Source: Sipunculus nudus (Eukaryota; Annelida; Sipuncula; Golfingiida; Sipunculidae). From it: a DNA stretch of 64,000 bases. Position numbers and translations under genes: made by a program. Shown here in pieces: positions 6,278-63,191 of this stretch (positions are counted from its first letter, which is position 1; the number at the start of each line of letters is the position of its first letter). The notes under the pieces were generated by a model. The model was not told where the DNA came from. It searched no databases and saw nothing but the letters and a program-made list of their open reading frames with translations. The stretch is from contig CM049309.1 in the NCBI GenBank assembly GCA_026874595.1, positions 26,663,033-26,727,032 of the forward strand. Reading direction: 5' to 3'.

Positions 6278-8355
6278 CTAGACATTTCTTGGCACTGCAG
6301 GTGCCAGAGTATCCCTAGACATAGTACGCCCCCCCCCCCCCCCCCCTTTAAGAATAGGCCCCCATTTTTAGCAGCATATACTGACACTTGGCAAGCAATT
6401 ATTGTTTCTTCATCTACCAATCCACAATCTTTTTAAAAGTTGTTGTTCCTGTGACCTTGACCTTTTGGCACATCACAAGGCTATCCAAGATCTTCTGTCA
6501 CCTTGATTTTGGGACCAATCCATGCAAATGATCTTGAGATACCCTAAATTGATATTGATCATCCACTTTTTTATATAAATCAATAGAGGTCTAGATTTAT
6601 TGATGGGTTTGAAATCCATGTATTAATCCAAGCTTGAATTATCATCTCGGGATCTAATTTTTGGACAGATGGCTCCTGTGACCTTCACCTTTGACCTTGT
6701 GACCTCACAGTTGACAGGCGTCTTCCTCTATTGGCAGGGGAACTGTATGTGCAAGATGAAATGTCTGAGATGAAATGTTTGGCTGAAAATGCATCCACAA
6801 TCTTTTTAAAGATGTATCCTGTGACCTTGACCTTTGACCTCATGACCCCAAAATCAATTTGGGTCTTGCTTTTCCAATGGGACATATACAAGTCAAGTTT
6901 GAAATCTATACATCAATAAAAGCAGGAATTTTCATCCAGAACTAATTTTTGGACAGATGTCTCCTGTGACCTTCACCTTTGACCTTGTGACCTCAAAATT
7001 GATAGGGTTCTTCCTCTCTTGGCAGGTGAACTATATGTGCAAGATGAAAGATCTGACATGAAATGTTTGGCTGGAAATGCATCCACAATCTTTTTAAAGA
7101 TGTGTCCTGTGACCTTGACCTTTGACCTCATGACCCCAAAATCAATTCGGGTCTTGCTTTTCCAATGGGACATATACAAGTCAAGTTTGAAATCCATACA
7201 TCAATAAAAGCAGGAATTATCATCCAGAAACTAATTTTGGACAGATGGCTCCTGTGACCTTCACCTTTGACCTTGTGACCTCAAAATTGATAGGGGTCTT
7301 CCTCTATTGGCAGATGAACTATATGTGCAAGATGAAAGATCTGAGATGAAATGTTTGGCTGAAAATGCATCCACAATCTTTTTAAAGATGTGTCCTGTGA
7401 CCTTGACCTTTGACCTCATGACCCCAAAATCAATTGGAGTCTTGCTTTTTCAATGGGACATATATAAGTCAAGTTTAGAAACAATACATCAATAAAAGCA
7501 GGATTTATCATCCAGAAACTAATTTTTTGACAGATAGCTCCTGTGGCCTTGACCTTTGACCTTGTGACCCCAAAATTGATATGGATCATCCACTATTGGC
7601 AAGTAAGCTATATATTCAAGATGGAAGACCTGGGATGAAAGTTTGGCTTAAAATGCATCCACAGTATCTTTTAAGATGCGAGTCCAGTGACCTTGACCTT
7701 TGACCTCATGACCCTATAACCTATAGGGTTCTTACTTTAGTGGTGAGTCATACAAAAGTCACGTTTGAAATCCATATGGCTATCAACACTGGAGATATCA
7801 TAAGAGGTGTTTGATTTTCACTGAATATGGTCACATTAAAGGTCAAGGCCACTCTCATGGTAAAGGTCATGACCCAAATGTAAATAGACCTCATCCCATA
7901 ACCCATCTCTCTACATGTGCATAATATAAAAGAAATCTGTCCATTAGTTTTTGACTTATAATGCTTACTGTCAAGTGGCAATTATGGGGGTATTAAAAGG
8001 CGTAAAAACAAGAAAAGGATAATTGGTGGCGCCACCGGTTTCCGGTATATCACAAGGCTATCCAAGATCTTCGGTCACCATGATTTTTGGACCAGTCCAT
8101 GCAAGCTTACTTGAGATATTTAAGAATTTGTGTTATTTTCAGCAAAAATGGACCTATTAAAGGTCAAGGTCACTCTCCTAGCATAGGTCATTACCACATT
8201 TTAAATAGGCTTCTTCCCCTTACCTATATCTATACAAATGTAATGTTTGAAAAAGATCAGTGGAATATATTTGAGTTATCCCACTCACAAGGTTTTTCTG
8301 CGGTGGCGGCGGGACCGTCGTGAAACCATAGTATCCCGACTTTGTCTGGGGATAC
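6278..8355 (+). mobile_element. Family-C element, copy 1 (full length)
   Basis: The 5' end is CTAGACATTTCTTGGCACTG with a GGCACTGCAGGTGCC hairpin, then the arm GTATCCCTAGACA and a C15-18 run. The 3' end is a hairpin (8331-8355) closing with CTGGGGATAC, the inverted repeat of the 5' arm. Between them lies a tandem array of 288-bp units and unique sequence with a GGTGGCGCCACC palindrome at 8025. There is no coding capacity beyond short repeat frames, so it is non-autonomous. It sits inside a family-A copy whose undisturbed equivalents show no long target duplication. I infer a Helitron2/Helentron-like element. Confidence 0.75.
6657..7545 (+). repeat. 288-bp tandem array in C copy 1
   Basis: Three successive units repeat at exactly 288 bp (the same open frame begins at 6731, 7019 and 7307), followed by a more diverged unit. 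Each unit has two clusters of TGACCT half-sites: TGACCTTCACCTTTGACCT, and TGACCTTGACCTTTGACCT at 6822, 7110, 7398 and 7688. The 62-codon frames in each unit exist because 288 is a multiple of three; they are not genes. Confidence 0.92.
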
Positions 8356-8540
8356 AATAATATAACTGAAATAAATAATTATTAAAATATTATTAAAAAT
8401 ATATTCATGAATGTATTAATGAATACATTTTGAAAGTATTTGCACTCAAATGCTTTCTTTTTACATGTATTAGTATTTTTATTAATTTTCATTATCAAAC
8501 TATTGAATATTTGTAATCATATTTGAATACAATTACACTG
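8356..8540 (+). mobile_element. Family-A element, right part resumed after family C
   Basis: The sequence picks up at AATAATATAACTGAAATAAAT, matching what follows the same point in the uninterrupted copies near 1490 and 45045. It includes a decayed form of the 22-bp palindrome (ATTCATGAATGTATTAATGAAT would be its place, about 8403-8424). Confidence 0.65.
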
Positions 8541-13659: not shown

Positions 13660-16313
13660 AACAAGGGACCTATGGGTCACGACGCTCAGCTGTTATATAT
13701 GATAAAAAAATATTATTTAGAAATGAGGCACATGCTGGTTTTGTGTGGTAATAAATATAAGCTGTATTATGAGTTTTTGTTGTTTAGCTTATGTATGATT
13801 TTGATAGTACCTTTGGAGACAGGGAAGAGGATTGATTTCATTTATTTTATTAACAAATGGAGTACTATTGTCACACAGATTTTGACTTGGCCATATAACT
13901 TATAAGCAGAACATATAATATAAGAGTTTAACTATTTATTAAAAAAAATTACAAATATTGTCCCAAATATAATTTTTATAAAAAATAATAAGAGAATCAT
14001 ATGATTTTTTTAAAATGAAATATAACTGATATGATTATTAAAATAATATTAAAGAATATATTCATGAATGCATTCATGAATACATTTTGAAAGTATTTGC
14101 ACGAGTATTCATATACTTTCATTTTTACCTGAATTCCTATTCTTTATGCAAGAAATTTAATAATGGAGTACATAATCATATTCGTATTTAAATACAATTA
14201 CAAAGTATTCGCACCATGTCTGGTATTTATTCAGTTTCACCAACCAATGATGTTGAGAATCCAGAATATACAAAATTCACACATTTGAATAATGATCATA
14301 AGTACCTGGTTTTATGGCTTTTATTTATATTAAAAAATAACTGTAAAAAATTCATTTTGGACTAATTTCACATCAATGTACACACTAGACACAGTAGGAA
14401 TCTAGATTAATATTATCAACTGCATCTTTGTCTATCATTAATTTCCTTCATATGATCCCTAATGATTAGTAATGAATAATGATTTACTTCTTTATCATTA
14501 AAATTGAACTGAAAAATGCCATAGGTGACTGCATGGTGTTATTTGGAATATGTGACATTCTACCCATCGATACAAGATTCTTATATCATCAGTAACTGCA
14601 AGTTAATTTCCTGTTATTATAAACTAACAAATTCCTTTTCTATTTTTCTTTAATTTGTTATTAAAAACCAATAAAAAATTATTAATTTATTGTTTATTGT
14701 TATGTTGTTGGTTAAAACTACTAGATGAGTTGGGTTGGACACCTGGATCAACTGTGGCTGGCCATAAGCTGCCTGGATTCCTGTATGCCTCGCCTCAAGC
14801 GTGCATAATTTGATGAAAGGTCAACAAGGTCAACATACAGGTGACTCAAGAGGGGCTGGAGAGAGCCTAAGTCTGACATGGTCTCATAAAAAACATTAAT
14901 AAAAGCTACAATTTTTGGCCAATTTCTTTCAGCTTTCTAAACTAAAAAGCTGAAATCCTAATGTGTGCATGATATGAAAATTATATCAACAGTGCTCACA
15001 GGACACAAACGTGCCATGGTCACAGTTGGGCAAAATTTAAGGTACTAATTTTATATTTATACTAATAACTTATAAAATTTGAAAAATTCAGAACTAATTT
15101 TGGGTATTCAATTGAATCTTGATTAAATAATGTTACATCCCTGACAAAAAAATCTCTAGCTTCAGCAATGCCCTTGTTAAGGGAGTAAATATATTTCTTG
15201 ATTTTTTACAAAGTGCATTATGTTTGGGCCCATAACTTAAAACAATTATGCAATACTGACATCATTCTGGCATGTGCATAGAGAATGAAAAATATGTATA
15301 TTATTTATGATTAAAGTCAGATCAGTGGTTTTGATATTAGGCAGTCATGAAGTGTAACAATGGGTTTTTAATGGAAAAATGAAGTTTTTCATTAATATCT
15401 CGAAGGTATTAAGTCCTAGTGACCAAATTCTTGGCATGGTAGGGGATTTTGGAGACATCTAACTGTATGCCGAATTTAAGGAACTAAGAGCTGAAGCTGG
15501 GGAGCTGAGCTCTTGCAAACTGCATAACACTAGCTTGATGTAAACAATATGTTACATGGTGCTTGAAAACTTATTTAAATCTACAGTTTTTGATCAACTG
15601 GTTTCAAATTTTTGGTGTTAACAGTTGAAATGCTAACAAAAACATGCTGTGAAAATTAAATCCACAGTACTTACAGGAAAAAAACGTGCCATGGTCAAAG
15701 TTGGGCAAAATTTAAGGTACCAATTTTTTATTTTTATTAATATTTTAGAAAATTTAAAAGATTTTCATCTAATTTTGGGTATACAATTAAATTTTGATTA
15801 ATTAAAGTTATATTACTGGAAAAAAGGTCGATAGCTTTAACATTTTTGTGTTAAGTGATCAAATATCTTTCCTGATTTTTTACAAAATGCATTATGTTTG
15901 GGCCCATAACTTTTTTAAATTAAATAATACAGACATAATTTCTGGCATGTACATAGGAACTATATAGAGGAATATTTATGGTAAATATGAGGAAAAACAG
16001 ATGAGTGGTTTTGATATTAGGCAGTCCTGAAGTGTGAAAATAGGTTTTTAATAAAAAATTGAGGTTTTTCCTTAATTTCTCAAAGGAACAAAGTTGCAAA
16101 GACCCAGTTTTCGGCTTGGTAGGAGATATTGGGGACATCTAACATTATGCTGAATTTTGGATTCCTAGGTCTTACGGTTTCAAAACGTGCCACATCTACG
16201 GACGGACGGACGGACGGACGGACGGACGGACGGACGGACGGACAGACGGACGGACGACGGACAATGGACCACGACTATAGCTCAGATGACTTATAGTCAG
16301 CTGAGCTAAAAAT
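13660..16313 (+). mobile_element. Family-A element, 2.65-kb subfamily, copy 1 (complete)
   Basis: It begins AACAAGGGACCTATGGGTCA and CGCTCAGCTG, and ends with the 29-nt hairpin at 16279-16307 (arms AGCTCAG and CTGAGCT, inner arms TGACT and AGTCA) followed by AAAAA. Copies 2 (25221) and 3 (45818) match it across the length by eye. It contains the perfect 22-bp palindrome at 14060-14081 and an ACGG/GACG run at 16198-16256 just before the end. The 83-codon frame at 13654-13905 recurs in the other copies with substitutions but has no recognisable domain. Non-autonomous. Confidence 0.78.
16198..16256. repeat. (GACG)n microsatellite at a family-A tail
   Basis: A run of GGAC/GACG tetramers between the CAAAACGTGCCACAT block and ACAATGGACCACGACTATAG. 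Every family-A tail has a tetramer run at this place with a different length (for example 27745-27775, 38744-38790, 39365-39400, 48418-48450, 49176-49235). Confidence 0.93.
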
Positions 16314-18935: not shown

Positions 18936-19147
18936 AATTGTTCAGGATAGTGCCCTGAAAGGCATGTTTGACTTATATAATTCACATCTGTTTCAATGTC
19001 ATAGGTTATTGTCTTTCAGTGATGGCCAAACTGGAATGATGCATCACATTCACACATTCATAGCTACATAAAACAGTCTTAGTACTTTGCGGTCTTCATA
19101 AGTACCATTTGCCAGTGTAGTGATACACATGCTTGTTATGGTAGGTA
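18936..19147. other. Unassigned spacer
   Basis: No gene or repeat recognised between the 42-bp satellite and the next family-A copy. Confidence 0.4.
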
Positions 19148-21006
19148 AAACGGACCCATGGGTCACCGCGCTCAGCTGAAGTTTGAAATTTTTGCAAATG
19201 CAAAATATGCAAAATATTCTATTGTAATGTTTTTCATTTATACAAGCATATGAGAAGCTTAGAGGAAAGGGGCCCTCCTACTTGGTTATAGCAAAGTTTT
19301 AAATATATGATTGCAAAACTAATACTCTGACAAGACTGTCATGAAAAAAAAAACAGTAACAGATACTGTGATGCATATGTAAAATTTACAGATGGACAGG
19401 CAAGTGGACAGAATGGACTTATACCTTTATTTCACTTTCAAGGGAATAATGCATTTAAGTTTATATTTAAGCCTATTTTTTTTAGCATATCCACTGTTTC
19501 AATTAACAGTTTTTATCGAATTCATTTTTAATTTATTTACAAATTTTATAAATTTGCAATAAAAAAATCTGAAAATATAAGTTAAAATATCAGAATTCTA
19601 AGTTGCAATCATTATTTATTTATCCAGAGTGTAGCTTATATTGGGTCATATTATGCATACACATATATTTTATTATTTTTAAATCACAAATGTTCAAAGT
19701 GAATTTAAAGAAAATAATGCCACAACATGGTGTCTTCAAGATTATTCCTTGAATCACTATTGAAAAGTTTTGTACATTTGAGCTTTCAGTACATGCTTAA
19801 TTTTATTCACCAAAATAAAAGATTCAGTATACACACTGTTAGTTGAATCAGGGACAAACATCATCATTGTGCTAATTACTATCTCAGCTGTAATTTTTTA
19901 CTGGAATTAATAGTCAATTTCACACCTGGTGAAGTTTTTACTCTTCTGAAGTAAAGAATTACTTATCTGATGAACTTCCACACTTTCATATAGCAATACA
20001 CCACTTTGTGGACACAATTAAATGTGTACTTTAATCATTGTAACCCTGGTGGTACACTAGAAAATCTAAAATATAGCACAGCCTAGAATAAGAATGAATC
20101 AAATACAGAAAATTATAACATTCATCTAGTTTATGCACCAGCTGGGGGAGGAAGGGGGGAGTGCAGGGCAGAGGGGAAGCCTGCTAGTAGTGGCCAAGCT
20201 GAGCCAAGGCAAGCTGCATGGAGAGGGTTACATAATACAAGTGAAGCCTGTACTGCTAGGTGGGCCTGATGTAAACAACACTTGACATGGTGTATGGAAA
20301 CTTGAATAAAAGCTTCTCTTTTCAATCAATTCCTTTGAAATTTCAGATTTTAAAAGATTAAATCCTTATGTATATATGCTGTGAAAATTAAATCAACAGT
20401 GCTTACAGGAGAAAAACGTGCCATAACCAAAGTTGGTCAAAATTTAAGGTATTTATTTTTTATTTATGCTAATAACTTAAAAAATTTGCAAAATTCAGAT
20501 CTAATTTTGGGTTAACAATGGAATCTTGATTTAATAAATTTATATCCCTGGAAAAAGTCTCCAGCTTCAGCAATTCTCATGTTCAAAGAGTAAATATATT
20601 CCTGATTTTTAAAAAATTGCATTATATTTGGACCTATAATTTCACAACAATATTCAATACTGACCTAATTTTTGGTATGTAAATAGAAAATGTATAGAAG
20701 AATACTAAATATAATCAAAAACAGACAAGTCGTTTCGATATTAGGCAGCCTTGAAGTGTAACAATGGCTTTTTTTTATGCAAAAATGGAGGTTTTTCCTT
20801 AATATTTCGAAGGAATGAAGTCCTAGTGACCCAATTTTTGGTATGGTAGGAGATTTTGGGGACATCTAACTGTATGTAATATTTTGGATTCATAGGTCCA
20901 AGGGTCTAAAAACGTGCCCTGTTAACGGACGTCCGGCCGACCGGACAGAAGACGGACAAAGGACCACGACTATACCTCAGATGACTTCTAGTCAACTGAG
21001 CTAATA
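19148..21006 (+). mobile_element. Family-A element, 1.86-kb subfamily
   Basis: It starts with a worn GGACCCATGGGTCACCGCGC and CTCAGCTG arm and ends CTCAGATGACTTCTAGTCAA then CTGAGCTAATAAA. The first part (AGAAGCTTAGAGGAAAGGGG) matches copies at about 41930 and 63192; the last 600 bp are the common family-A tail. Its tetramer run is short. It lies between the satellite and the degenerate repeat near 21340. Confidence 0.7.
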
Positions 21007-22285
21007 AACCTATAAAGCTAAGCTTCCTTATGTACGGAATATGGAATGCAGAATGTGGCAAGCAGAATGAGCATTGAGAGATTTCAAATTTTTACCTGCA
21101 CGGTAAAATGCACATCTTTCTATGTGTCGCTCTGGGATACCACACAGAACCAGCAAAAATTGATACATGTAGTGATTTCTTATGCCAGATCTGCCTATAA
21201 GGAATCTCAGCTTAAACCTAGTTACTTATAGTTCCATATCAACTGAACATAATTTGTTTTTAGTTATAGATGTCACTTAGTCAAGTTCCTAAACCTATTT
21301 ATCATGCAGCACTTAAATGCTTACGATACAACTTAAAAACAAGAGCACCGCACACTTGCATAATACACCTGTTGTGTATCTGGTGACCAAGGTGCCTCCA
21401 AAGTTTGGTGACCTCTGACCTCATTAAATACATGTGAATTTTGTTGAAAATGTAAATAAGGTGAGAAAGTCTACTGGTAAATATGAATAATCAGTTTCAT
21501 GGAAAATCCATAGGATTTTTGGTAAGTCACCAAGGCGCCTCTAAAGTGTGGTGACCTCTGACCTCATTAAATATGCTTGGATTTTGCTGGACTTCGTACA
21601 TAGGTGAGATATTTTATTGATTAATATTTCTGATGAGTTTTATCAAAATCCTTCATATTAGTTATTGCGGTGACACCACAATGTAGCTGAGTGACCCATG
21701 ATCTTATAAAATATGCGTGGACATTGCCAATAATCGAACTTTGGGGAGATAATCTGTTGGTAACTACTTATGGCGAGTTTCGCAAAAATCCATCAAAGCC
21801 TTGGTAAGTTACTGCGGTGACACTGAAAGTTACAGACGGATGGTGGGTATACCATAATACTCCTGTCATAAGACGGGCATATAAAAAGTTTGAATTCATC
21901 ACACTGTTTGAATCTTTGATGTTTATGAGACCTTACCATTGTGTCACATGTGAACAGACAAGACAACCTTGTTTAGACACACAACAGATTTACCAAATAC
22001 TGAACACTACTCTAGTCAGTGTCTGGGCAGGTCAGCAAACTCTCAATAGACAAATCCTCTGTGAATGCCATGATGCTGCTCTTCTGTCATTTAATATTAC
22101 AATATTTTTTTTTCAAATTCTGAACAGCTAAACCCGTAAGTTACTTTATAGAACAATTTATTCCTGTTCTGGCCATATCTTAGTGATGTTACTCATTGGT
22201 GTAATGATAGGTTTATCTATTGAGAACTTGTTATGTACATGGATAACCAAAGGAGAAGCATGCATGACCACTGACATCAGCTTAC
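21007..22285. other. Intergenic or intronic, with degenerate 140-bp repeats
   Basis: From about 21385 to 21830 there are four diverged units of roughly 135-142 bp (near 21385, 21527, 21662 and 21803), with the theme GGTGACCTCTGACCTCATTAAATA(T/C)G and TCCATxxxxxTTGGTAAGT. An ACAAGAGCACCGCACACTTG start-like block precedes them at 21340. A 104-codon plus-strand frame at 21817-22131 starts in the repeat and has no recognisable domain. The stretch lies downstream of the last visible SMAP exon, so it is probably still intron. Confidence 0.5.
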
Positions 22286-22410
22286 CTGCATCCCGGGAAT
22301 CATGTTACCTCCCTGCATGTTTGTCTGCATCCCCATTCCACCTGGTATCATACCCGGCGCCACCATTCCTCCTCCTGACTGGGGAGGCTGACTTGGCAGG
22401 TACATACCAC
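22286..22410 (-). CDS. SMAP1/SMAP2-like: SMAP1/SMAP2-type ArfGAP, Met/Gly/Pro-rich exon
   Basis: A 125-bp internal exon (phase 1 in, phase 0 out). The acceptor is ATCTTTTGTCAG and the donor GTAAGC. Joined to the previous exon's last G it reads GGMYLPSQPPQSGGGMVAPG, then MIPGGMGMQTNMQGGNMIPG and MQ. SMAP1 and SMAP2 have the same kind of Met/Gly/Pro/Gln-rich C-terminal region directly after the ILxLYG block, a region linked to CALM binding in SMAP2. The frame continues without interruption from FGVPG in the 34771 exon. There is no stop codon, so at least one more exon must follow. I found none between 1 and 22285, so the gene probably runs on below position 1. A family-B repeat starts 147 bp upstream of the acceptor. 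Confidence 0.85.
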
Positions 22411-22556
22411 CTGACAAAAGATGTCACAAACTTATAATAAAACATGGGTGTTAATATGAGAATATCAACAACAATGATGGCAGACAGTTTTCATTGAAAA
22501 TGAAAGTCATCCAAACATGGGCGACATAAAATGTTGGTATCAACGTAATACTATAA

Positions 22557-22797
22557 AACAAGGCTAACGAGCCTTATGCAAACCTGTGCAATGGGATATA
22601 CATCAGGCATAATGCTTCAATGATAACATGCTTCACCATTACTTTTCAAGTACTAAACATTTTGACCTGACACAACACAAAACTAGACATTTATGGGCAC
22701 CACATGATTAAGATTATTAAAGTAATGTAGGTGTGGAGTTCTGGAATAAATCAGACAAAACCATATATGATTTGTTCAAAGATATGTATAAGAATAA
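22557..22797 (+). mobile_element. Family-B element, 5' fragment
   Basis: AACAAGGCTAACGAGCCTTA (hairpin arms AGGCT/AGCCT) followed by the arm GCAAACCTGTGC, then a CATCAGGCATAATGCTTCAAT block as in 51693 and 60357. It is cut by C copy 2 at 22798 and lies in the SMAP intron next to the 22286-22410 exon. Confidence 0.65.
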
Positions 22798-25104: not shown

Positions 25105-25220
25105 AATAATTGTATATATAACATGAAATATTATTTTTATTTCTAATATGGATCAAATTGCTATATCCTACCTGTTCTGGAAAACTAATAAAGATCAGGT
25201 GAACTTCAAAGAACGGTGAA

Positions 25221-43492: not shown

Positions 43493-43495
43493 TGT

Positions 43496-45817: not shown

Positions 45818-48504
45818 AACAAGGGACCTATGGGTCACGGCGCTCAGCTGTTATACATGATAAAAAAATATGATTTAGAAATGAGGCACATGCTGGTTTT
45901 ATGTGGTAATAAAAATAAGCTGTATTATGAGTTGTTGTTGTTCAGCTTATGTATGATTTTGATAGTACCTTTGGAGACAGGGAAGAGGATTGATTTCATT
46001 TATTTTATTAACAAATGAAGTGCTTTTGTCACACAGATTTTGACTTGGCCATATAACTTATAAGCAGAACATATAATATAAGAGTTAAACTATTTATTAA
46101 AAATAATTACAAATTTTCCCAAATACAATTTTTATTAAAAATAATAAGTTTATCAAAATTACAAATATTGTCCCAAATATAATTTTTATAAAAAATAATA
46201 AGAGAATTGTATGATTTTTTAAAATAAGATATAACTGAAATGATTATTAAAATAATATTAAAGAATATATTCATGAATGCATTCATGAATACATTTTGAA
46301 AGTATTTGCACTGGTATTCATATACTTTCATTTTTACCTGAATTCCCATTCTTATGAAAGAAATTTTATAATGGAGTACATATTCATATTCGTATTTAAA
46401 TACAATTGCAAAGTATTCGCACCATGTCTGGTATTTATTCAGTTTTCGCCAAACAATGATGTTGAGAATCCAGAATATACACAATTCACACATTTAAATA
46501 ATGATCATAAGTTCCTGGTTTTATGGCTTTTATTTATATTATAAAAAAATAAATGTAATATATTCATTTTGTACTAATTTCACATCAATGTACACACTAG
46601 ACACAGTAGGAATCTAGATTAATATTATCAACTGCATCTTCCTCTATCATTAATTTCCTTCATATGATCCCTAATGATTAGTAATGAATAATATGATTTA
46701 CTTTTTTATCATTAAAATTTAACTGAAAAATACCATTGGTGACTGCATGGTGTTATATGTGACATTCTATCTATAGATACAAGATTCTTATATCATCAGT
46801 AACTGCAAGTTAATTTCCTGTTATTATCAACTAACAAATTCCTTTTCTATTTTTCTTTAATTTGTTATTAAAAACCAATAAAAATTTATTAATTTATTGT
46901 TTATTGTCATGTTGTTGGTTAAAACTACTAGATGAGTTGGGTTGGACACCTGGATCAACTGTGGCTGGCCATAAGCTGCCTGGATGCCCCAGTTTACGCT
47001 GCCTCAAGCATGCATAATTTGCTGAAAGTTCAACAAGGTCAACATACAGGTGACTCAAGAGGGGCTAGAGAGAGCCAAGGTCTGACATGGTCTCATAAAA
47101 ACATTAATAAAAGCTACAATTTTTGGCCAATTTCTTTCAACTTTCTAAACTAAAAAGCTGAAATCCTTATAATTATGTGTGCATGATATGAAAATCATAT
47201 CAACAGTGCTCACAGGAAACAAACATGCCATGGTCAAAGTTGGGCAAAATTTAAGGTACTAATTTTATATTAATACTAATAACTTATAAAATTTGAAAAA
47301 TTCAGAACTAATTTTGGGTATTCAATTGAATCTTGATTAAATGTTACATCCCTGACAAAAAATCTCTAGCTTCAGCAATCCTCTTGTTAAGGGAGTAAAT
47401 ATATTTATTGATTTTTTACAAAGTGCATTATGTTTTGGCCCATAACTTAAAACAATTACCCAATACTGACATCATTTCTTGCATGTGCATAGAGAATGTA
47501 TAGAAAAATATGTATAATATATATGATTAAAGTCAGATCAGTGGTTTAGATATCAGGCAGTCTTGAAGTGTAACAATGGATTTTTAATGGAAAAATGAAG
47601 TTTTTCATTAATATCTCGAAGGTATTAAGTACTAGTGACCAAATTCTTGGCATGGTCGGGGGATTTTTGAGACATCTAAGTGTATGCCAAATTTTAGGAA
47701 TTGAGAGCTGAAGCTGGGGAGCTCAGCTCTTGCAAACCGCATGACACTAACTTGATGTAAACAATATGTTACATGGTGCTTGAAAACTTGAATAAAATCT
47801 ACAGTTTTTGATCAACTGGTTTCAAATTTTTGGTGTTAACAGTTGAAATGTTAACAAAAACATGCTGTGAAAATTAAATCCACAGTACTTACAGGAAAAA
47901 AACGTGCCATGGTCAAATTTGGGCAAAATTTAAGGTACAAATTTTTTATTTTTATTAATATTTTAAAAAATTTAAAAGATTTTCATCTAATTTTTGGTAT
48001 ACAATTTAATTTTGATTAATTAAAATTATATTACTGGAAAAAAGGTCCATAGCTTTAACATTTTTTGTGTTAAGTGATCAAATATCTTTCCTGAATTTTT
48101 AAAAAATGCATTATGTTTGGGCCCATAACTTTTTTAAATTAAATAATACAGACATAATTTCTGGCATGTACATAGGAACTATATAGAGGAATATTTATGG
48201 TTAATATGAGGAAAAACAGATAAGTGGTTTGATATTAGGCAGTCCTGAAGTGTGAAAATAGGTTTTTAATAAAAAATTGAGGTTTTTCCTAAATTTCTCA
48301 AAGGAACGAAGTTGCAAAAACCCAGTTTTCGGCTTGGTAGGAGATCTTGGGGACATCTAACACTATGCCGAATTTTGGATTCCTAGGTCTTACGGTTTCA
48401 AAACGTGCCACATCTACGGACGGACGGACGGCACGACAGACGGACGGACGACGGACAATGGACCACGACTATAGCTCAGATAACTAATAGTCAGCTGAGC
48501 TAAT
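45818..48504 (+). mobile_element. Family-A element, 2.65-kb subfamily, copy 3
   Basis: Same structure as copies 1 and 2: AACAAGGGACCTATGGGTCA start, 22-bp palindrome at 46269-46290, tetramer run, and terminal CTCAGATAACTAATAGTCAG then CTGAGCTAATAAAAAA (two changes in the hairpin loop and stem). Confidence 0.77.
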
Positions 48505-49306: not shown

Positions 49307-49599
49307 AACAAGGCCTACAGGCCTAATGCGAACCTGTGCAAAGTTTGGGAGTATGAATGGAGGTTTATTTTTAAAATTTCAGATTGATCCTCTTAAGTCC
49401 TGCATATATACCTTAGTCTTTATGATTTCAGCAAAATGGACGTTTCAGACCTACAAGTTTCAGACTAGGACATTTTAAAACTAGAATATGGGTAGTCGAC
49501 AAGCGACTGTGTATCCGCAGAAATCAGACTGGGACGGGTGAAGTGAGGCATGGATTTAGTGGCAATGGGAATAGAGTTAGGTGTGTTGCATATTAGCAT

Positions 49600-50700
49600 G
49601 GATGTCTGCAGCGTAAACATGAATGTAGGTGGTGCCACCTGTCATAAAATCGAGAAAATTGTCCAGGATGTATAAACCTTCAAAATTTCAGGTAGATAAG
49701 TCAAACCACTGCTGAGATATGAATGATTTTATCCCAAGGCAGATGAACAGATGGACGCTGTGCATAGGTGGTTGCAGTTGGCGCCACCAGTTTTGCCTAT
49801 GATGAAGAGCTATGTGAGATCTATACACAAGTAAAATTTTGGCCCTAACAGTTCCGGAGATATTAGCTTGGATGTCTGCTGAATAAACCTGAATGTAGGT
49901 GGCACCACCTGTCATAAAATTAAGAGAGCTGTCCAGGATGTATAAACCTGCAAAATTTCAGGTGGATAAGTCAAACCACTGCTGAGATATCAGTGATTTT
50001 ATCCCAAGGCAGATGAACAGATGGACGCTGTGCATAAATGGTTGCAGGTGGCGCCACCAGTTTTGCCTATGATGAAGAGCTATGCGAGATCTATACACAT
50101 GCACAATTGGTCAAACGGTTCCGGAGATATGAGCTTGGATGTCTGCAGAGTAAACCTGAATGTAGGTGGCACCACCTGTCATAAAATTAAAAGGGCTGTT
50201 CAGGATGTATAAACCTGCAAAATTTCAAGTGGATAAGTCAAACCACTGCTGAGATATCAGTGATTTTATCCCAAGGCAGATGAACAGATGGACGCTGTGC
50301 ATAAATGGTTGCAGGTGGCGCCACTAGTTTCGCCTATGATGAAGAGCTATGTGAGATCTATACACATGCAAAATGTTGGCCCAATCAGTCAAACTGTTCC
50401 CGAGATATGAGCTTGGATGTCTGCAGCTTAAACGTGAATGAAGGGGGTGCCACCTGTCATAAAATCAAGAAAGCTGTCCAGGATGTATAAACCTGCAAAA
50501 TTTCTGGTGGAAAAGTCAAACCACTGCTGAGATATGAGTGATTTTATCCCAAGGCAGATGAACAGATGGACGCTGTCCAAAAATGGTTGCAGGTAGCACC
50601 ACCATTTTCAGTGTATGTTATAAAGCTATCAAAGGGCTACATTTGAGCAAAACTTTAAGCCTGATCGGTCAAACAGTTCCTGAGATATGTGGGTTTATGT
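49600..50700 (+). repeat. About 280-bp tandem array in family B
   Basis: The landmark GGATGTCTGCAG occurs at about 49600, 49870, 50140 and 50420 (spacing about 266-284 bp), each followed by GTAGGTGG(C/T)(A/G)CCACCTGTC and later GGTTGCAGGTGGCGCCACCA. Short frames in each unit are a by-product of the repeat. Confidence 0.85.
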
Positions 50701-50905
50701 GTGGAAACAGACGCACAAATAGACGCTGGGCAGCGAGGAAAGGTCAGAGGTCAACCAAAAATGAGGGCGCAGCAGTTCACATGTGACCTGATGATAAACC
50801 CAATTCACTTAAATGGAAACCAAGTTTTTTCAATCAGTTGGAAGATATAGTTCCAATAATCTGGGAATTCTGCATCTAGACACTGTGTCTAGACGTGTAG
50901 ACGCT

Positions 50906-50925
50906 GTGTCTAGACGTCTAGACAC
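50906..50925. repeat. 20-bp perfect palindrome
   Basis: GTGTCTAGACGTCTAGACAC reads the same on both strands. It lies among further TCTAGAC and GTCTAGAC copies between 50876 and 50936. A decayed relative is at about 62815-62835 in another family-B copy. Confidence 0.95.
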
Positions 50926-53040
50926 ATTGTCTAGACACCTGCCAGAGCCAGGTCAGTTGCCATGGTGATGTCTGGACCCCACCTGTTTGTACTGAGTGAC
51001 CTCTTGACTTGGCTGCTGAAACTCAGCATTTTGTCAAATCTTTTTTCAAACACAGAAATCCTTTTTCAATTGGCTACAATGCTTTTTTAAAGCTGTACTT
51101 ACCCAATCTATTCTTATAAAACTGGCAGAACCCTACCATAGAATAATTCTTGTAAAGTTTAAACTAATCAGCTTAACAGTTTCATCATAAATCAGTGTAT
51201 AAGCTAGAAGAGTTTAAAATTACATTTTCTCTTGTAAAAAAACATCAATGTAGGTGGCGCCACCAATACCTCAATATCAGATATGACTCATGTGACAAAT
51301 ATTGGCATAAAACTTGGTGATGATAGCTCCAGCCGTTTAGTATGCTTTTTTGGACAGATGACTAAGTTCAACTTTTTGTAACTCGGCCAAAAATCACGGA
51401 ACTTAAACCATTCAAATAAACTTGAGAAAGATTGTTCCAGGAATCATTTCTATGAAATATTGGCCAATTTGGCTGCACAGTTTCGGAGAAGAAGAATTTT
51501 TTAGCTTTTTCCCTATAAAATCTAAGAAAATGCAGTTAGCCAAAAAATAAGCTAAATCCGATAGGGTTTTTAGATGACTAATATTTTGCATAAAATTTCG
51601 TGGTGCTAACTCTTGCCATTTTCAAGATAGTATGGGTTAACGTACAGACGACGGATGACGCCACACCATCGCATAAGCTCACGGGTTTGCTAAACAAGGC
51701 CTACAGGCCTAATGCGAACCTGTGCATTGGGAAATACACCAGGTATAATGCTTCAATGCTGAACCATTACTTTTCATGTATATGAACAATGCAAGTACTA
51801 AACATTTTGAATAAGAAACAATTTCACAAACATCACAGCTGAAATTCTGGCATGGGTGCACAAAACACAAAAACGATTGTAGCTGGCACCACCAGTCTTG
51901 TATACAACAAAGCTATCAGAGATATACACATATGCCAAATTTCAGACTGATATATCAAACCTCTCCTAAGAAATAAGCAGGGACACACATTGTGCAAAAA
52001 TTATTGTAGATGGCACCACCAGTCTTGTAAAAGACAAAGCTATTCAATATGTATAAATATGCCCAATTTCAGGCTGATATATCAAATTCCTCTGTAGAAA
52101 TAAGCAAGCACATACACTGTGCAAAAGTCAATGTACGTGGCACAACCTGTCTTGTAAATGAGAATACCATCAAAGACACATAGACAGGTCAAAATATCAG
52201 TCCAATACATCAAGCTTCCCCAGAGTTTGATGCACTGGACTGACATGGCTTAGGTGAGTAAGGCAGTTGCCCCCGAGTGACCTGTGACAGATTGCTGCCT
52301 CAAGCTACTGCACTGAGTGAACTCTTGTTCTGCACCTGGCTAGACTGAGTGAACTTTTGACCTATACCTGGCTGCACTGAATGAACTTTTGACCTATACC
52401 TGGCTGCACTTCTTCCAATCCTGGCACTGTGCAAATACTATTTATAGAGCTGACATCATCTTGGCTAATGGCCAACATAAAGGCACTGGCAATCTGCCAA
52501 TGGTAAACCAAGTGCTGCCATCTGAACACAAAAGTGGTCCCTACTTGAAATAACTTTGAAATTTATTTTCCCAATACAAAATGCTTTTCAGCTGACTTTT
52601 TATAAAAAAGAAATCAGGAATATATGTAAAATTATTACAGATGCATACTGAATGCAAAATTAAAATACAGATATATCTCACTGATGGCAAATTCTTGAAT
52701 TAAGTTGAGTAGGGATACCATTAATTTAAAATCCACATACAGATGTCTTTATATAGCCACAGAGAGCTGAATATTCATGATTGTAACATTGCCTGGTATG
52801 ATGAATGACTTAAATAATAAATCTAAATTTTTTAAAAGCTTTTAAAATAACTTTCTTGTCAATATTAACCAAAGATAAACTGAAATCTAAATGTCTGGTG
52901 GCATGATGTAATAGATGCTGATAAACTGGTGCCAGGCTAGATGCAACAGCATCACACAGCTAACGTATATGGTAAAATGACTCAATTCAATCTCCATAAT
53001 TCAGCCAAAATCATTCATGTGGAACAATAAATGACAATTA

Positions 53041-54077
53041 CCGTATTTATTCCAATTTGGTGATCCCTCTTATTTCTCGACCCCAAAAAATATTTTGAAA
53101 GCATAATTTCTATAATGACTCTAATTTCGCGACTGCCGACGATGTTTTCTGTTGAGGATGATTCGGTGAAATGCCTCCGTCTGTCGCGGGCTCCGCAGTT
53201 TGTATCTGACTAGATTCTTATTACACTGAGGATCCACATCAAACTTGTTTGCAATAAAAAATTTTTGAAGATACAAAGATGCGGTTTTCATTATTTATAT
53301 ATAAACATGATAAAGCGTTCAAGTTCCAAATGGGTGTCCGTGACGAAGCAAACTTGTATACCATTCCTGGCACGCACGTGCCTCGTGTGCAATTCACGAG
53401 GGATATTTAGCAAGAATTACAAAATACGGGAAGGTACACGTGGTGGAACAACTGGGACATAGTTGAAACTGTCATCTTAGTTAAGCTCAAACGATGCCGG
53501 TTAGCTTTTGGATGGGTGACCACACGTACAAGACAGGGCCCGATCGAGGACACGGGAGCTAGGACCATTTCCGGTCGTATGTAATTTAACGCGTTATCTG
53601 ATTATAGGTAGTTATTTTAATAAAATCTTCTTCCAATTTCCGTGCAGCTGCTTGTCCCTTTTCAGCCTGCTGATATCGCCGCCTGATGGGTAAACTTGAA
53701 ACAACTTGTAGTTACATGAGTTGCCGTCTTAAGTCAAGCGAATACCTGTACGCGAAGTACTGATCATTTTGTAAATTGACTGAGCTCAGTTTGATTAATG
53801 ATTGGCGGACTCCGTATTTTTCATGTGACTGTTGGAAGCCCGTTTGTAGGAAATTAACAAAACAAACTTATAAACACCCATATTATCACTCAATCCATAT
53901 GACCGTTCCACTGTCAGAGCGGCTCGGGTTCTCTTTGGAAGGTTATCCCACCGCATGCCTCTAAAATCTCAACCACCACAAATTCTGCAGGAAGATAATT
54001 TTCAAATATCCTCCATTATCTTGACCTCTGGGAAAATTAATTATTTTTAAGTGGTCGCCAAATTAGAATAAATACGG
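53041..54077. mobile_element. TA-target DNA transposon (non-autonomous), 1.04 kb
   Basis: The left end CCGTATTTATTCCAATTTGG and the inverted right end CCGTATTTATTCTAATTTGG differ by one base over 20, and both are flanked by TA (53039-53040 and 54078-54079). This fits a Tc1/mariner-pogo-type target site. No transposase is present. It contains a 5S rRNA-like segment and is related in end sequence to 12402-16966. Confidence 0.78.
53478..53524 (+). pseudogene. 5S rRNA-like fragment inside the TA element
   Basis: TTAAGC, 12 bases, GGTTAGCTTTTGGATGGGTG then ACC copies the spacing and wording of the 5S rRNA internal promoter: (A/C)TAAGC of box A, 12 bases, then GGTTAGTACTTGGATGGGTG then ACC of box C (22 of 24 by my recall in the last part). 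The first 45 or so bases and the 3' third of 5S rRNA are not recognisable, so it is a fragment rather than a gene. SINE3-type elements use such a 5S-derived promoter; I see no tRNA- or LINE-like tail here. Confidence 0.65.
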
Positions 54078-55040
54078 TATTATAAGAATTATTGTAGGAA
54101 TTATTCTTGTAAAGTATTTAACAAACTGGCTCCAGTGGCATCAGTCGAAAAACATTTCGCAGGTTTTTAACTCGTACAGGATGATACAGCAAACTGGCTA
54201 AGTTCAGCTTCCCGTAACTCAGCCAAAAAACACTGAACCAAAACCATTTGAACAAACTTGAATTATCAACATCTGAGGATAATTAATGTGTGAGATTTAA
54301 AAATTGGGCCCAGTGGTTTTTGAGAAGAAGATCTTTGTAGCCACTGAGCTAAAATGGGCTGTTATGGCATATGACTAAATTCAGCTTCCCATAACTTAGC
54401 CAAAAGTCACTGAAAAGAGACCATTTGAACAAAATTCAGAAAGCACTACCCTAGGATCATTTCTGTGCGATATTAAACATTTTGGCCATATGGTTTCAGA
54501 GAAGAAGTTTTTTGTAGCCCTCAGTGTGATACAGGCACTGATGACCCTGTACAAAAAAAGGCCAATGCAGGTGGCGCCACCAATACCTCAATTTCAGATA
54601 TGACCTATGTGACCAACATTGGCATAAAATTTGGTGATGATAGCTACAGCTGTTTCTGAGATTTAAATTTTAATATGCTTTTTTGCACAGTTAACAAAGT
54701 TCAACCTCCTGTATCTCTGCCAAAAATCACCGAACTGGAACCATTCGAACAAACTTGAGAAAGATTGTTCCAGGGATCATTTCTGTGAAATATTGGACAA
54801 TTTGGCTGGACATTTTCGGAGAAGAAGATTTTTAAAGCTTTTTTAGCTTTTTCCCTATAAAATCTAAGAAAATGCAGTTAGATAAAAATAAACAAAATAT
54901 AGTTTTTTGGATGACTGATTATTTGCAAAAAATTTGGTGATGCTAGCTCCTGCCGTTTTTGAGATAGCTATGGTTAACGTACAGACGACGCACGACGGAC
55001 GACGCTGCACCATCGCATAAGCTCACAGGTTCGCTAAAAA

Positions 55041-56070: not shown

Positions 56071-56313
56071 AACAAGGCCTACAGGCCTAATGCAAACCTG
56101 TGCAATGGAATATACAAGCCTTAATTAAGTTTCTGAAGGTTTAAGCGGTCTTAACCATCATATCACCCCCTGAACCCTACTAGTTTACTGTGTGGCCGTG
56201 CCCTTAAACAGTTTCAAAACATGCCAGTCTAACAGACAGACGGGCGGCATGATAGACAGACAGAGGGACCATGACTATAGCTCAGATGACTTATAATCAG
56301 CTCAGCTAAAAAT
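56071..56313 (+). mobile_element. Family-B start joined to a family-A tail
   Basis: AACAAGGCCTACAGGCCTAA and GCAAACCTGTGC (56071-56110), then unassigned sequence, then from about 56205 a family-A tail ending GACTTATAATCAGCTCAGCT AAAAA. A second example of a B start with an A end, here very short (243 bp). Confidence 0.55.
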
Positions 56314-57048: not shown

Positions 57049-57157
57049 CAAGACCTAATAAATCTGCAGATGCAGGGACAGGAGCTGGAGCTGGTTTTTC
57101 TGGTGGTTTGTCAGCCATTCTTTCCAGCTTTCGAGTTTCTTGTGGTGATCTCTTTGG
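57049..57157 (-). CDS. SMAP1/SMAP2-like: SMAP1/SMAP2-type ArfGAP, exon ending in the clathrin box
   Basis: A 109-bp internal exon. The acceptor is TTGTTGTCTTGACAG and the donor GTGAGT. In phase 0 it reads PKRSPQETRKLERMADKPPE, continues KPAPAPVPASADLLGL, and leaves one base (G). The next exon begins AT, so the junction codon is GAT (Asp), completing LLGLD. LLGLD is the clathrin-box motif of SMAP1 and SMAP2, which are Arf GTPase-activating proteins acting in clathrin-dependent endosomal and trans-Golgi traffic. The Lys/Pro-rich lead-in is also typical of the family. The catalytic zinc-finger ArfGAP domain is not here and should lie on upstream exons beyond 64000. The downstream intron is about 22.0 kb. 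Identity is from recalled family motifs; no search was run. Confidence 0.88.
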
Positions 57158-58413
57158 CTGTCAAGACAACAATTAATCTTACATTACAATTTAAAACCCG
57201 ACACCTATCACAGAGCAATGTTCATATGAATCAACTTGCAAGATTAAAAGTTCAGATGTTATTGCCCGCAGCACTATCTGAAAGAAATATCTGATCCAGA
57301 TGAAGTTAAAGTAAATGAAAATTAACTGCATGCCAAACTGATGTGGGAACAAGAATATATTAACCATATAGTTAAAGATGTCTCTTTTATTGTATGTGTA
57401 TGTGCAGCACTAGCACTGGCCGTCCCCATGACAGCATGGCCCGGCCCTTGCGTTGGGTCTAAAGTGTAAACAGCGGTCATGGTAGTCTGGGGTTTTCTCA
57501 CCTGGCAGAGCCAGGCCAGCCCACATGTGAACCCTCATATGCAGAAACACAGTGATGTTGTTCTAGATGTTTCCTGTAATGAGTGTGTATTGTGTATCAT
57601 AATAGGTTCTTTGGATTATTGGAGAAATGAAAAGTTCTCGGCTTGGGGTGAGAAGTTATTTAATAAATAAGGGGCTGTGTTTTAGAGCCAGGAGGAGGGA
57701 GAGAAATATTCCAGCGGACACAGAAGCATGTAAGTCAGTTGTAGACCTTTTCCTATAAGTGCGGCAATTATAGATTATCTTCTAAATTTGTGACGGATTT
57801 TATATAGTCTTCAGTTTGCCTTTCGGATCACTGCCAGGATTTCATTTAGGATTACAGTAGATTGATTTTTGTGATTACATTGGACTGTTATTCTCTGAGA
57901 AGATCTGTGTGAACTGTTCATCCAGCTGATACATTTTTAAAGGACTTGTGGCTGTGACAGTGGTGGTATCCAGGTACTGTGCACTTTGTTTATTATGCTG
58001 TGTGATTATATTGATTAGCTGTTATACTGTTGTTGTACTGTGTAATTGTATTCATTTAGTGTATTGTAATGTTAGGGTTGTTATAGGAACAAATTATAGT
58101 TATTTGTTAACAAAAAACCACTGACTTCTTTTTTCATTCCCCTAGACATTTCACGCTGCCTAGTGTTACAGAATCTGATTTTTTTTATCTCCATGACAAA
58201 GTTTATGTTCGTCAGGCATACATGATCTGTTGATATTAGGTTCCGTAACAATATGTATTGCAAATTTTCATATATATATATATATATATTCAATGTTTCT
58301 GGAAATTAATTCTATGAAACTCAAGAAGGGGGTATTATCACTTGTCTTGCCATTTCACATTTGTTTTGCCACATCAGTGTTTGTGTTACAAGCATTTTGA
58401 TCTAAAAACTCAC
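57158..58413 (-). other. SMAP intron, about 1.26 kb, mostly non-repetitive
   Basis: The intron lies between the probable basic-linker exon and the clathrin-box exon. It contains a short (AT)n run near 58270-58289 and otherwise none of the repeat families seen elsewhere. Two bordering stretches with open frames (57479-57670, 58081-58293) show no recognisable protein and are treated as chance. Repeat-poor sequence here contrasts with the neighbouring 22-kb intron. Confidence 0.6.
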
Positions 58414-60338: not shown

Positions 60339-60356
60339 TTATAAAACTTTTAAATA

Positions 60357-61223
60357 ACAAGGCCTACAGGCCTAATGCGAACCTGTGCATATGGATATAC
60401 ACCAGGTATAATGCTTCAATGCTGAACCACTACTTTTCATATATATGAACAATGCAAGTACTTAACATTTTGAACAAGAAACAATACACAAACATCACTG
60501 CTGAAATTCTGGCATGGGTGCAAACAACACAAAAGTTATTGTAGGTGGCACCACCAGTCTTGTATACGACAAAGCTATTTGACATGTATAAATATGCCCA
60601 ATTTCAGGCTGATATATCAAATTCTTCCGTAGAATTAAGCAGGCACATACACTTTGCAAAAGTCATTGTAGATGGCAACACCTGTCTTGTGAATGAGAAA
60701 GCCATTAAAGACACATAAACAGGCAGAATATCAGCCAATACATCAAACTTACCTTGAGTCTGATGCACTGGGCTGACCAGGCTTAGGTGAGAAAGGCTGT
60801 TGCCCCGAGTGTACTATGACAAATTACTGGCTCAGGCTACTGCACTGAGTGAACTCTTGACCTGCACCTGGCTAGACTGAGTGAACTTTTGACCTGTACC
60901 TGGCTGCACTGAATGAACATGAGGTGATCACATGATACTCATGAGGTGATCACATGCTACCCATGAAATGATCACATGCTGCCCATGAGGTGATCACATG
61001 CCTTGTGCTTGGCTGCACTGACTGAACTCTTGACCTAAATCTGGCTGCACTGAATGAACTCTTGATCTGTTGCCAAATCTGAAACAGTTGGCAGTTTCTC
61101 AACCTATTCAAGAAACATACACAATCTTGGCCTGTTATGTAACTCTGCTAAAATTTATCCAACACAAACCATTTGAACAAATTTGAGAAGGCTCACCTCT
61201 GGGATCATTTCTGTAAAATATTG
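60357..61223 (+). mobile_element. Family-B element, truncated by the next copy
   Basis: Starts AACAAGGCCTACAGGCCTAA then GCGAACCTGTGC, parallels 51692 onward (CACCAGGTATAATGCTTCAA; CACCACCAGTCTTGTATAC; ACTGAGTGAACTCTTGACCT units), then changes to the family-B 3'-half phrase CTAAAATTTATCC-AACACAAACCATTTGAAC and stops at 61223 in ATATTGAACAAGG where another family-B copy starts. Confidence 0.65.
60918..61005. repeat. 22-bp tandem repeat, four copies
   Basis: The unit is CATGAGGTGATCACATGCTA plus two bases; four copies in a row, each with a GTGATCAC-type palindrome (one copy has AATGATCAC). It lies among 32-bp ACTGAATGAACTCTTGACCT units inside a family-B copy. The equivalent place in the copy at 51692 (about 52380) has no such expansion. 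Confidence 0.92.
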
Positions 61224-63191
61224 AACAAGGCCTACAGGCCTAATGTGAACCTGTGCAAAGTTAAGGAGTATGAATGGAGGTTAATTTTTTAAAATTTAAT
61301 ATTGATCCTGCATATCTACTTTAGTCTTTTTGATTTCAGCAAAATGGACGTTTCTGACCTGCAAGTTTCGGACTAGGACATTTTAAAACCAGAATATTGG
61401 TAGGCGACAAGCCACTATGTGTATCCACAGAAATCAGAGTGGGACGGGTGAAGTGAGGCATGGATTAAATGGCATGGGGAATAGAGCGTGGTGTGTTGCA
61501 TATTAGCATGGATGTCTGCAGCTTAAACGTGAATGTAGGTGGTGCCATCTGTCATAAAATCGAGAAAGCTGTCAAGGATGTAAAATACCTGCAAAATTTC
61601 AGGTGGATAAGTCAAACCACTGCTGAGATATGAGTGATTTTAACCTAAGGCAGATGAACAGATGGATGGTGTGCATAAATGGTTGCAGGTGGCACCACCA
61701 GTTTTCCCTATGATGAAGAGCTATAAGAGATCTATACACATGCAAAATTTTGGCCTAATCGGTCAAACCGTTCCTGAGATATGAGCTTGGATGTCTGCAG
61801 AGTAAATGTGAATGTAGGTGGAACCACCTGTCATTAAATCGAGAAACCTGTCCATGATGTATAAACCTGCAAAATTTCAGGTGGATAAGTCAAAACCACT
61901 GCTGAGATATGAGTGATTTTAACCTAAGGAAGATGAACAGATGGACGCTGTGCATAAGTGGTTGCAGATGGCGCCACCAGTTTTGCCTATGATGAAGAGC
62001 TATGTGAGATCTATACACATGCAAACTTTTTGCCCAATCAGTCATATGGTTCCTGATATAAGAGCTTGGATGTCTGCAGAGTAAACGTGAATGTAGGTGG
62101 TGCCACCTGTCATAAATCGAGAAAGCTGTCCAGGATGTATAAACCTGCAAAATTTCAGGGGGATAAGTCAAACCACTGCTGAGATATGAGTGATTTTAAC
62201 CTAAGGCAGATGAACAGATGGATGCTGTGCATAAATGGTTGCAGGTGGCACCACCAGTTTTCCCTATGATGAAGAGTTATGTGAGATCTATACACATGCA
62301 AAATTTTGGCCTAATCGGTCAAACGGTTCCCGAGATATGAGCTTGGATGTCTACAGAGTAAATGTGAATGTAGGTGGCGCCACCTGTCATAAAATCGAGA
62401 AAGCTGTCCAGGATGTATAAACCTGCAAAATTTCAAGTGGATAAGTCAAACCACTGCTGAGATATGAGTAATATTATCCCAAGGTAGATGAACAGATGGA
62501 TGCTGTGCAAAAATGGTTGCAGGTGGCGCCACCATTTTTAGTGTAAGTTATAAAGCTATCAAAGGGCTACATTTGTGCAAAATTTTTAGCCTGATCGGTC
62601 AAACGGTTCCCGAGATATGTGGGTTTATGTGTGGAAACAGACGCACAAATGGACACTGGGCAGCAAGGAAAGGTCAGAGGTCAACCAAAAATGAAGGCGC
62701 AGCAGTTCACATGTGACCTGATGATAAACCCAATTCGCTTAAAATGCAAACAAAGTTTTTTCAAACAGTTGAAAGATATAGTTCCAATAATCTGGGAATT
62801 CTGCATCTAAACATTGTGTCCAGACGTCTAGACGCTTTATCTCAGATGACTAAGTTCAACTTTTTGTAACTCGGCCAAAAATCACGGAACTTAAACCATT
62901 CAAATAAACTTGAGAAAGATTGTTCCAGGAATCATTTCTGTGAAATATTGGCCAATTTGGCTGCACAGTTTCAGAGAAGAAGATTTTTAAAGTTTTTTAG
63001 CTTTTTCCCTATAAAATCTAAGAAAATGCAGTTAGCCAAAAAATAAGCAAAATCTGATACAGTTTTTCAGATAACTAATTTTTTGCATAAAATTTCGTTA
63101 TGCTAACGCTTGCCGTTTTCAAGATAGTATGGGTTAACGTACAGACGACGGACGACGCCACACCATCGCATAAGCTCACAGGTTCGCTAAA
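61224..63191 (+). mobile_element. Family-B element (complete, 1.97 kb)
   Basis: Starts AACAAGGCCTACAGGCCTAA then GTGAACCTGTGC and ends CATCGCATAAGCTCACAGGT then TCGCTAAAA. It has about four tandem units of 280 bp (61500-62600) with GGTGGCGCCACC at 62373 and 62522. Frame coincidences give short open frames in each unit. A family-A element begins at its last A residues. Confidence 0.75.
61500..62600 (+). repeat. About 280-bp tandem array in family B
   Basis: Landmark GGATGTCTGCAG recurs at about 61510, 61789, 62068 and 62347 (in the last as GGATGTCTACAG), spacing about 279 bp. Units resemble those at 49600-50700 and 28910-29500. Confidence 0.87.

Follow-up and report, generated by a model that had tools for sequence, protein, structure and literature searches.

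We identified four repeat families, A, B, C and E, in a 64,000-nucleotide stretch of the Sipunculus nudus genome (contig CM049309.1, positions 26,663,033 to 26,727,032; hereafter the window) that, together with a fifth family, F, are very probably non-autonomous Helentrons (HINEs), moved by Helentron Rep/helicase/endonuclease proteins encoded elsewhere in the genome. Across families, insertions of this type keep one orientation over tens of kilobases to about 1 Mb and then change sign sharply, as observed in the window, in samples of contig C4 and along contig C1 (96416-2318523).

An earlier note on this DNA had quoted twelve hairpin and arm motifs for families A, B, C and E, and each of them proved real, with at least one exact match in the window. 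On the plus strand, the A arms CAGCTGAGC and GCTCAGCTG have 11 and 9 exact copies, respectively, while the B hairpin motif has 6 exact copies in the window and the C and E motifs have 1-2 each. The window was scanned by tolerant matching with eight end modules, one 5' module (LF) and one 3' module (RF) per family, both in the element (minus-strand) sense. With up to 20% errors allowed, 46 modules were found, 45 on the minus strand and one on the plus strand. Control modules, reversed and uncomplemented, gave 0-5 matches per module at a looser 33% threshold; plus-strand matches at that looser threshold were mainly mirror images of better minus-strand 5' hairpins, with a few at threshold. As the elements occupy the minus strand, the 5' and 3' labels of the earlier note are exchanged: its "5' hairpin" is the known 3' palindrome, and its "switchable 3' arm", the arm with the local hairpin, is the known 5' subterminal inverted repeat (subTIR).

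In the minus sense, the elements read TT, 5' subTIR, local inverted repeat (except in B), microsatellite if present, body, 3' subTIR, palindrome, CTTG or CTAG, and TT. The subTIRs measure 9 bp in A, 11 in B, 13 in C, 11 in E and 12 in F; HINEs carry subTIRs of about 11-15 bp at both ends, and A is shorter than usual. All five families have a palindrome near the 3' end, past the 3' subTIR. The terminal tetramer of the RF is CTAG in C and E and CTTG in A and B, and among the RF modules found with up to 27% errors, 22 of 25 end in CT[TA]GTT and 2 more carry CTTGT. The 5' modules start with TTAGC or TTGTAT rather than with the 5' TC of Helitron1. ACGG/GTCC arrays and arrays with a period of 127-298 bp lie beside the LF of A and E and within the bodies of B and C; the family C LF has a short CGG tract. 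A structural finder returned 10 matches that recover this design and the fifth family, F (L011:7053-8508), against one match in the reversed control; three of the 10, all at L022, look like A/T-rich chance pairs. Across the genome searched (1.43 Gb, 153 contigs), the A 5' pattern has 25,265 matches and the A 3' pattern 29,045, with 0 for the reversed controls, and there are 2,529 exact B 5' ends.

Hairpins were folded as DNA and scored relative to shuffled sequences (z). The local terminal hairpins described in the earlier note for A, C and E were confirmed beside the terminal arm (z -3.1, -5.6 and -4.9), as was their absence from B (z +1.3); F has a weak one (z -1.5). The 3' palindrome folds clearly in C (z -2.7), E (z -2.2) and F (z -4.6) and not beyond shuffles in A (z -0.9) and B (z -0.8). 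Asymmetric terminal inverted repeats (ATIRs) with hairpins at both ends, the Helitron2 combination, are present in A, C, E and F, with a weak 5' hairpin in F, and not in B.

Joined flanks of 18 candidate spans, some of them alternative ends of one element, were compared with the window and the sampled genome sequence. The empty sites recovered are uninterrupted paralogous sites at a T-run or TT, where the number of Ts differs by one to a few. They are clear for one E element (30882..31913; two paralogs, L024 at 91% and L025 at 84% identity), one A element (23 alignments) and one C element (10 alignments), with one further, diverged A site. These sites fix the element ends in A, C and E, and insertion into a T-rich target without target duplication, as in HINEs, was found for two A, one C and one E insertion.

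The genome also encodes candidate machinery. We found at least 143 matches to the Helitron-like N-terminal (Rep) family (195 candidates, 150 scored), 7 of them in open frames longer than 2,200 aa; none of the matches listed is in the window. Frames on contigs C8 and C17, of 2,250 and 2,342 aa as summed from the stretches read, end in PIF1 helicase and Exo_endo_phos, in frame with Rep, the C17 Exo_endo_phos score falling marginally below the curated cut-off. A family A 3' end lies about 1 kb past the C17 frame on the same strand (4/33 errors), and an F element is inserted upstream of that frame. The earlier note's claim of several non-autonomous lineages of the Helentron/Helitron2 kind is thus backed by empty sites for the A, C and E ends and by a genome with open Rep-PIF1-endonuclease frames. 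Any pairing of a protein with the family it moves is inferred. In the N-terminal parts of the two Helentron frames, L053:2-1027 (minus) matches Herpes_teg_N and L029:4099-5499 matches DUF6570. A scan of viral contigs for the A end gave no match.

The same features bear on three other identities. Canonical Helitron1 elements (5' TC, 3' CTRR, A/T target) with incidental inverted repeats would account for the CTAG (C, E) and CTTG (A, B) of the RF, which resemble Helitron 3' ends, and CTTG is known with Helraiser variants (PMC4778049). However, the empty sites lie at T-runs or TT and not between A and T, a 5' subTIR plus inverted repeat is present, and both Rep loci examined have an endonuclease domain, which makes this reading very improbable. 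Still less probable are cut-and-paste miniature inverted-repeat transposable elements (MITEs) with terminal inverted repeats: although the arms are inverted and subterminal, and DINE-1 and Pearl were formerly called MITEs (PMC2374699, PMC7492417), the ends are asymmetric, the palindrome is at a single end, and the empty-site comparisons have no clear target duplication save one to a few Ts. Equally improbable, in our judgment, is that the hairpins are meaningless by-products of palindrome-rich repeat bodies, as the weak folds of the A and B 3' palindromes alone might suggest, given that the module order is constant across five different sequences, the control scans are near empty, and the genome-wide counts of end patterns are high.

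Several observations weigh against the HINE assignment. Family B is without the 5' hairpin, and the comparison of 18 candidate spans gave no empty site for it or for most of the others; alignments at two B spans represent the elements' own or related ends. Because B has neither 5' hairpin nor empty site, it is the least certain member and its inclusion is provisional. The earlier note had also suggested looking for an autonomous Rep/helicase element with the same ends; the genome has open Rep-PIF1-endonuclease frames and an A-type 3' end at C17, but no A-type LF was found in L053 (C17) or in the next 0.45 kb upstream, and C8 was rejected as an autonomous element because about 9.6 kb of its flanking sequence contained none of these ends. 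The C17 3' end is only suggestive of a link between A and an autonomous partner and may be a chance neighbor: with 29,045 A 3' matches in the genome, we estimate the chance of an A-type RF beside one Rep locus at a few percent, and two loci were looked at. Finally, compensatory change within families is nearly absent. Covariation of the hairpins and palindromes, which the earlier note had asked for, was counted within A, B and C, leaving out 4 gapped A copies and copies with another match length. In the A palindrome (25 copies, one of seven pairs unpaired in the consensus), 25/175 pair cells are changed and 1 is compensatory; the corresponding counts are 12/231 and 0 for the A 5' hairpin (21 copies), 3/66 and 1 for the B palindrome (11 copies), 1/42 and 0 for the C palindrome (6 copies), and 32/330 and 0 for further A palindromes (55 of 100 places listed). 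Since copies decay after insertion, this test has little power and was counted neither for nor against. Between families, arms and palindromes differ in sequence and complementarity is kept.

The arms themselves can be paired in two ways. Matched 5'/3' arm duplexes in the five families range from -13.0 to -17.2 kcal/mol and mismatched combinations from -3.8 to -12.9 kcal/mol, energies that carry no penalty for the distance between element ends; the matched arms are strongest in 5/5 families, with a margin of just 0.1 kcal/mol for A. The local 5' hairpin has -4.0 to -11.2 kcal/mol in A, C, E and F and -0.8 in B. In A, C and E the far partner is a perfect complement, and the local partner has a single mismatch or bulge. 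The local mismatch in A is C opposite T, with T in 21, C in 2, A in 1 and G in 0 of 24 copies. By reading of the sequence, the F local stem has a G-T position at the corresponding site, and the F 3' arm has an alternative pairing around its own palindrome. The two alternative pairings in the earlier note are not new, as they are already in print: in Bao and Jurka (2013, PMC3627910), the Helitron2 5' ATIR and downstream bases form a hairpin, and pairing of both ATIRs is proposed to destroy that hairpin and set the replication end point.

In the most likely mechanism for the families described here, Rep would nick the T-flanked 5' end, recognized with the subTIR and with the hairpin where present, and the helicase would displace the sense strand. 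Directly ahead of CTTG/CTAG, the 3' palindrome may act as a terminator, and the freed strand would be joined into a T-run without clear target duplication. Following Bao and Jurka, the 3' arm might then pair with the 5' arm, opening the imperfect 5' hairpin and marking the end point, a step to which we give even chances. An alternative that keeps the HINE identity is that the complementarity is no switch: the same Rep surface would bind one short sequence, inverted, at both ends, and the hairpins would be protein landing sites. B retains arms and 3' palindrome without a 5' hairpin and is nonetheless widespread, and compensatory change is nearly nil in the copies examined, as this alternative would have it. 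On the other side, the 5' arm of A, C, E and F also pairs locally, weakly so in F, and both pairings persist though the sequences differ by family. We regard the landing-site alternative as plausible at somewhat below even chances. With family B lacking a 5' hairpin, the switch cannot apply to all families, and the data suggest that B spread without a recognizable one.

The minus-strand bias of the window recurs elsewhere. Of twenty 10-kb samples of C4, 7 have no module, 5 have one, and 8 have two or more; in these 8 (six minus, two plus), 41 of 42 modules match the sample majority. On C1, the first 69 A 5' ends listed, spanning 1.08 Mb (96 kb-1.175 Mb), comprise 67 minus and 2 plus, the next 9 listed (1.250-1.469 Mb) are all plus, and several sign changes lie beyond. 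The A 3' ends of C1 concur (78 minus, 2 plus up to 1.095 Mb), a count confined to the range in which both strands are listed; in the other listings, the strands may be covered unequally near the ends of the lists. Genome totals for A 5' ends are balanced by strand, at 12,539 and 12,726.

Unrelated families tend to agree in sign up to about 100 kb. B and C ends take the sign that prevails among the nearest A ends, within 100 kb, in 11/11 and 5/5 cases. Across C1, pairs less than 30 kb apart share their sign in 9/9 B-B, 13/13 C-C and 9/12 B-C comparisons, some of the C-C pairs reflecting one tandem duplication; B-C agreement is 24/30 at 30-100 kb, 12/26 at 100-200 kb and 19/41 at 200-400 kb, and A-B pairs at 3-10 kb share a sign in just 7/10. 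In runs tests, shuffles with as few runs numbered 0/20,000 for A, which is strong, and 917/20,000 for B and 2,028/20,000 for C, which are weak. A literature search, with most subscription journals outside its scope, turned up no title or abstract dealing with how Helitrons or Helentrons are oriented over long distances; oyster elements are described as integrating in both orientations (PMC7492417), and the orientation passages of Thomas et al. (PMC4067079) concern coding direction.

Target supply and base skew were assessed in nine oriented stretches (the window, L013, L017, L018, L020, L022, L024, L025 and L026). Target supply was rejected as the cause, as it is symmetrical on the sense strand (614 T5+ runs vs 623 A5+ runs). 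Head-to-tail self-insertion accounts for abutting pairs but not for the agreement of different families tens of kilobases apart. Base skew was measured in 40,836 bases (15,876 from the window) after masking DNA repeated within the sampled sequence. The masked element-sense strand is G+T rich on average, with a GC skew of +0.034 (standard error [s.e.] 0.008) and a TA skew of +0.021 (s.e. 0.006), both s.e. being simple counting errors; GC skew is positive in 7/9 stretches and TA skew in 8/9. Unmasked GC skew is negative in 7/9 stretches, so leftover element sequence would oppose the positive sign. Excess G+T is a mark of the leading strand as well as of the coding strand in other animals. An outward-fork prediction, with left chromosome ends minus and right ends plus, was not confirmed: with up to 22% errors, of 10 right-end samples, 2 of them partly N, 4 on three contigs gave 5 modules, every one of them plus, as is a single weaker module, while the 10 left-end samples were mixed (4 minus, 3 plus; C1 left end minus).

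The window appears to lie within a host gene, on the same strand as the elements, judging from exons with splice signals at 22283-22412, 34771-35019 and 57049-57162, the last two taken to be SMAP-like, and from an ArfGap exon at C4:26795708-26795854; a single gene comprising them all would extend over about 110 kb. In the C4 samples around it, the element sign is plus at 26.50 Mb, with 1 module, and minus at 26.60 Mb (3 modules) and 26.80 Mb (1 module), and 7/8 modules are plus at 26.90 Mb. As gene and elements share a strand, the window is explained equally well by transcription and by replication. On C1, replication is the better fit for the 1.08-Mb stretch, unless it contains one very large gene or several genes on the same strand. 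Judged from Helentron-type ends alone, host replication may set the insertion strand, a reading we hold tentatively and short of an even chance; host transcription ranks only slightly behind it as a possible cause, and the remaining probability goes to others, such as shared selection or undetected duplication history. Under the replication reading, the transposed single strand could be joined to T-runs exposed on the lagging-strand template at replication forks, and the orientation of tens of thousands of old copies could then be a fossil map of fork direction, to which we likewise give somewhat less than even chances. The orientation of bacterial IS200/IS605 elements is coupled to host replication (reviewed in PMC5371812), and for the source of single-stranded DNA the Helraiser authors consider two options, lagging-strand replication and negative supercoiling (PMC4778049).

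Elements and exons are collected in the table below.

Table. HINE copies, mixed-end copies and exons in and near the window (window coordinates unless a contig is given)
Feature	Position	Strand	Evidence and remarks
Family A HINE	13660..16309	-	LF 16266-16309 (5' subTIR GCTCAGCTG, local inverted repeat, GTCC-type microsatellite); RF 13660-13692 (3' subTIR, palindrome, CTTGTT); module scan; single diverged (82%) paralogous empty site, window 36045-35916
Family A HINE	19147..21004	-	RF 19147-19178, LF 20961-21004; module scan; empty-site search negative
Family A HINE	25221..27827	-	RF 25221-25253, LF 27785-27827; sequence in common with 13657 and 45815; empty-site search negative
Family A HINE	45818..48503	-	RF 45818-45850, LF 48460-48503; module scan; empty-site search negative
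Family A HINE, two LF copies	36934..39450	-	LF 38797-38840 and 39407-39450; empty-site search negative with either end
Family A HINE containing nested E	30267..33718	-	RF 30267-30299, LF 33674-33718; empty sites: 23 alignments across T-run target
Family E HINE	30882..31913	-	LF 31876-31913 (AGCCCTCAGCC, one-bulge local hairpin); RF 30882-30924 (perfect arm, palindrome, CTAGTT); empty sites L024, L025
Family C HINE	6276..8357	-	RF 6276-6324, LF 8326-8357; empty sites: 10 alignments to uninterrupted repeat copies
Family C HINE	22796..25106	-	RF 22796-22844, LF 25074-25106; hairpin z -5.6; empty-site search negative
Family B HINE (provisional)	49307..51693	-	RF 49307-49340, LF 51664-51693; empty-site search negative
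Family B HINE (provisional)	51693..55037	-	RF 51693-51726, LF 55008-55037; empty-site search negative
Family B HINE (provisional), without local 5' hairpin	61224..63190	-	RF 61224-61257, LF 63161-63190; empty-site search negative; adjoins family A RF at 63192-63223
Mixed-end copy	28616..29551	-	B-type RF and body, ~30 nt of A-type LF
Mixed-end copy, ~240 bp	56071..56309	-	B-type RF, A-type LF
Probable host exon, presumed same gene as 34771..35019	22283..22412	-	Frame open; AG and GT at or near stated ends
Host exon	34771..35019	-	AG/GT bounded; strand as elements
Host exon	57049..57162	-	Acceptor AG just inside stated 5' end; strand as elements
ArfGap exon, presumed same gene	C4:26795708-26795854	-	Beyond window

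The mixed-end copies were considered as proof that arm pairing is dispensable, and this was rejected: the 28616-29551 junction, the only one counted genome-wide, occurs once (up to 2 mismatches), so that copy has perhaps never been mobile. At three T-runs (49290-49307, 51693 and 63190-63192), elements stand head to tail, the 3' end of one touching, or lying no more than 16 bases from, the 5' end of another. On C1 (63713992-63743308), four C-type 3' ends are spaced 9,760-9,762 bases apart, probably a tandem duplication. The window further holds a 42-bp minisatellite of about 26 units (17867-18946) with a long open frame on both strands, and two neighboring long open stretches of 205 and 157 aa on the minus strand (3079-4229).

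Among known systems, the families are closest in architecture to HINE/DINE-1 elements and the Cg_HINE elements of Crassostrea gigas, with which they share the 5' subTIR, partial local inverted repeat, GTCY/GTCC microsatellite, tandem-repeat core, 3' subTIR, palindrome and T-rich target. In the literature, DINE-1 is described with subTIRs of 13 bp, a microsatellite rich in GTCY, a stem-loop at the 3' end and a second inverted repeat that in part complements the 5' one (PMC2374699, Yang and Barbash 2008), DINE-1/HINE are assigned to Helentrons (Thomas et al. 2014, PMC4067079), and 11 oyster elements have the same parts (Vojvoda Zeljko et al. 2020, PMC7492417). The present families differ from these in that B has no local inverted repeat and in a long-distance coherence of insertion orientation that was not seen in the papers and listings consulted. 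They resemble Helitron2 (Bao and Jurka 2013) in their ATIRs, the 5' hairpin formed by the 5' ATIR and downstream bases, the 3' hairpin and the proposed pairing switch; unlike Helitron2, the two Rep loci here have an endonuclease domain of the Helentron type, and B has no 5' hairpin. With IS200/IS605 they share single-strand transposition, with orientation following replication in IS200/IS605 (PMC5371812), although those elements are bacterial and use TnpA. These findings add HINE families, and the apparent spread of B without a recognizable 5' hairpin restricts the published pairing-switch idea. Should coherent orientation hold across the genome, old insertions would allow the source of single-stranded DNA for Helitron-type transposases to be tested from sequence alone.

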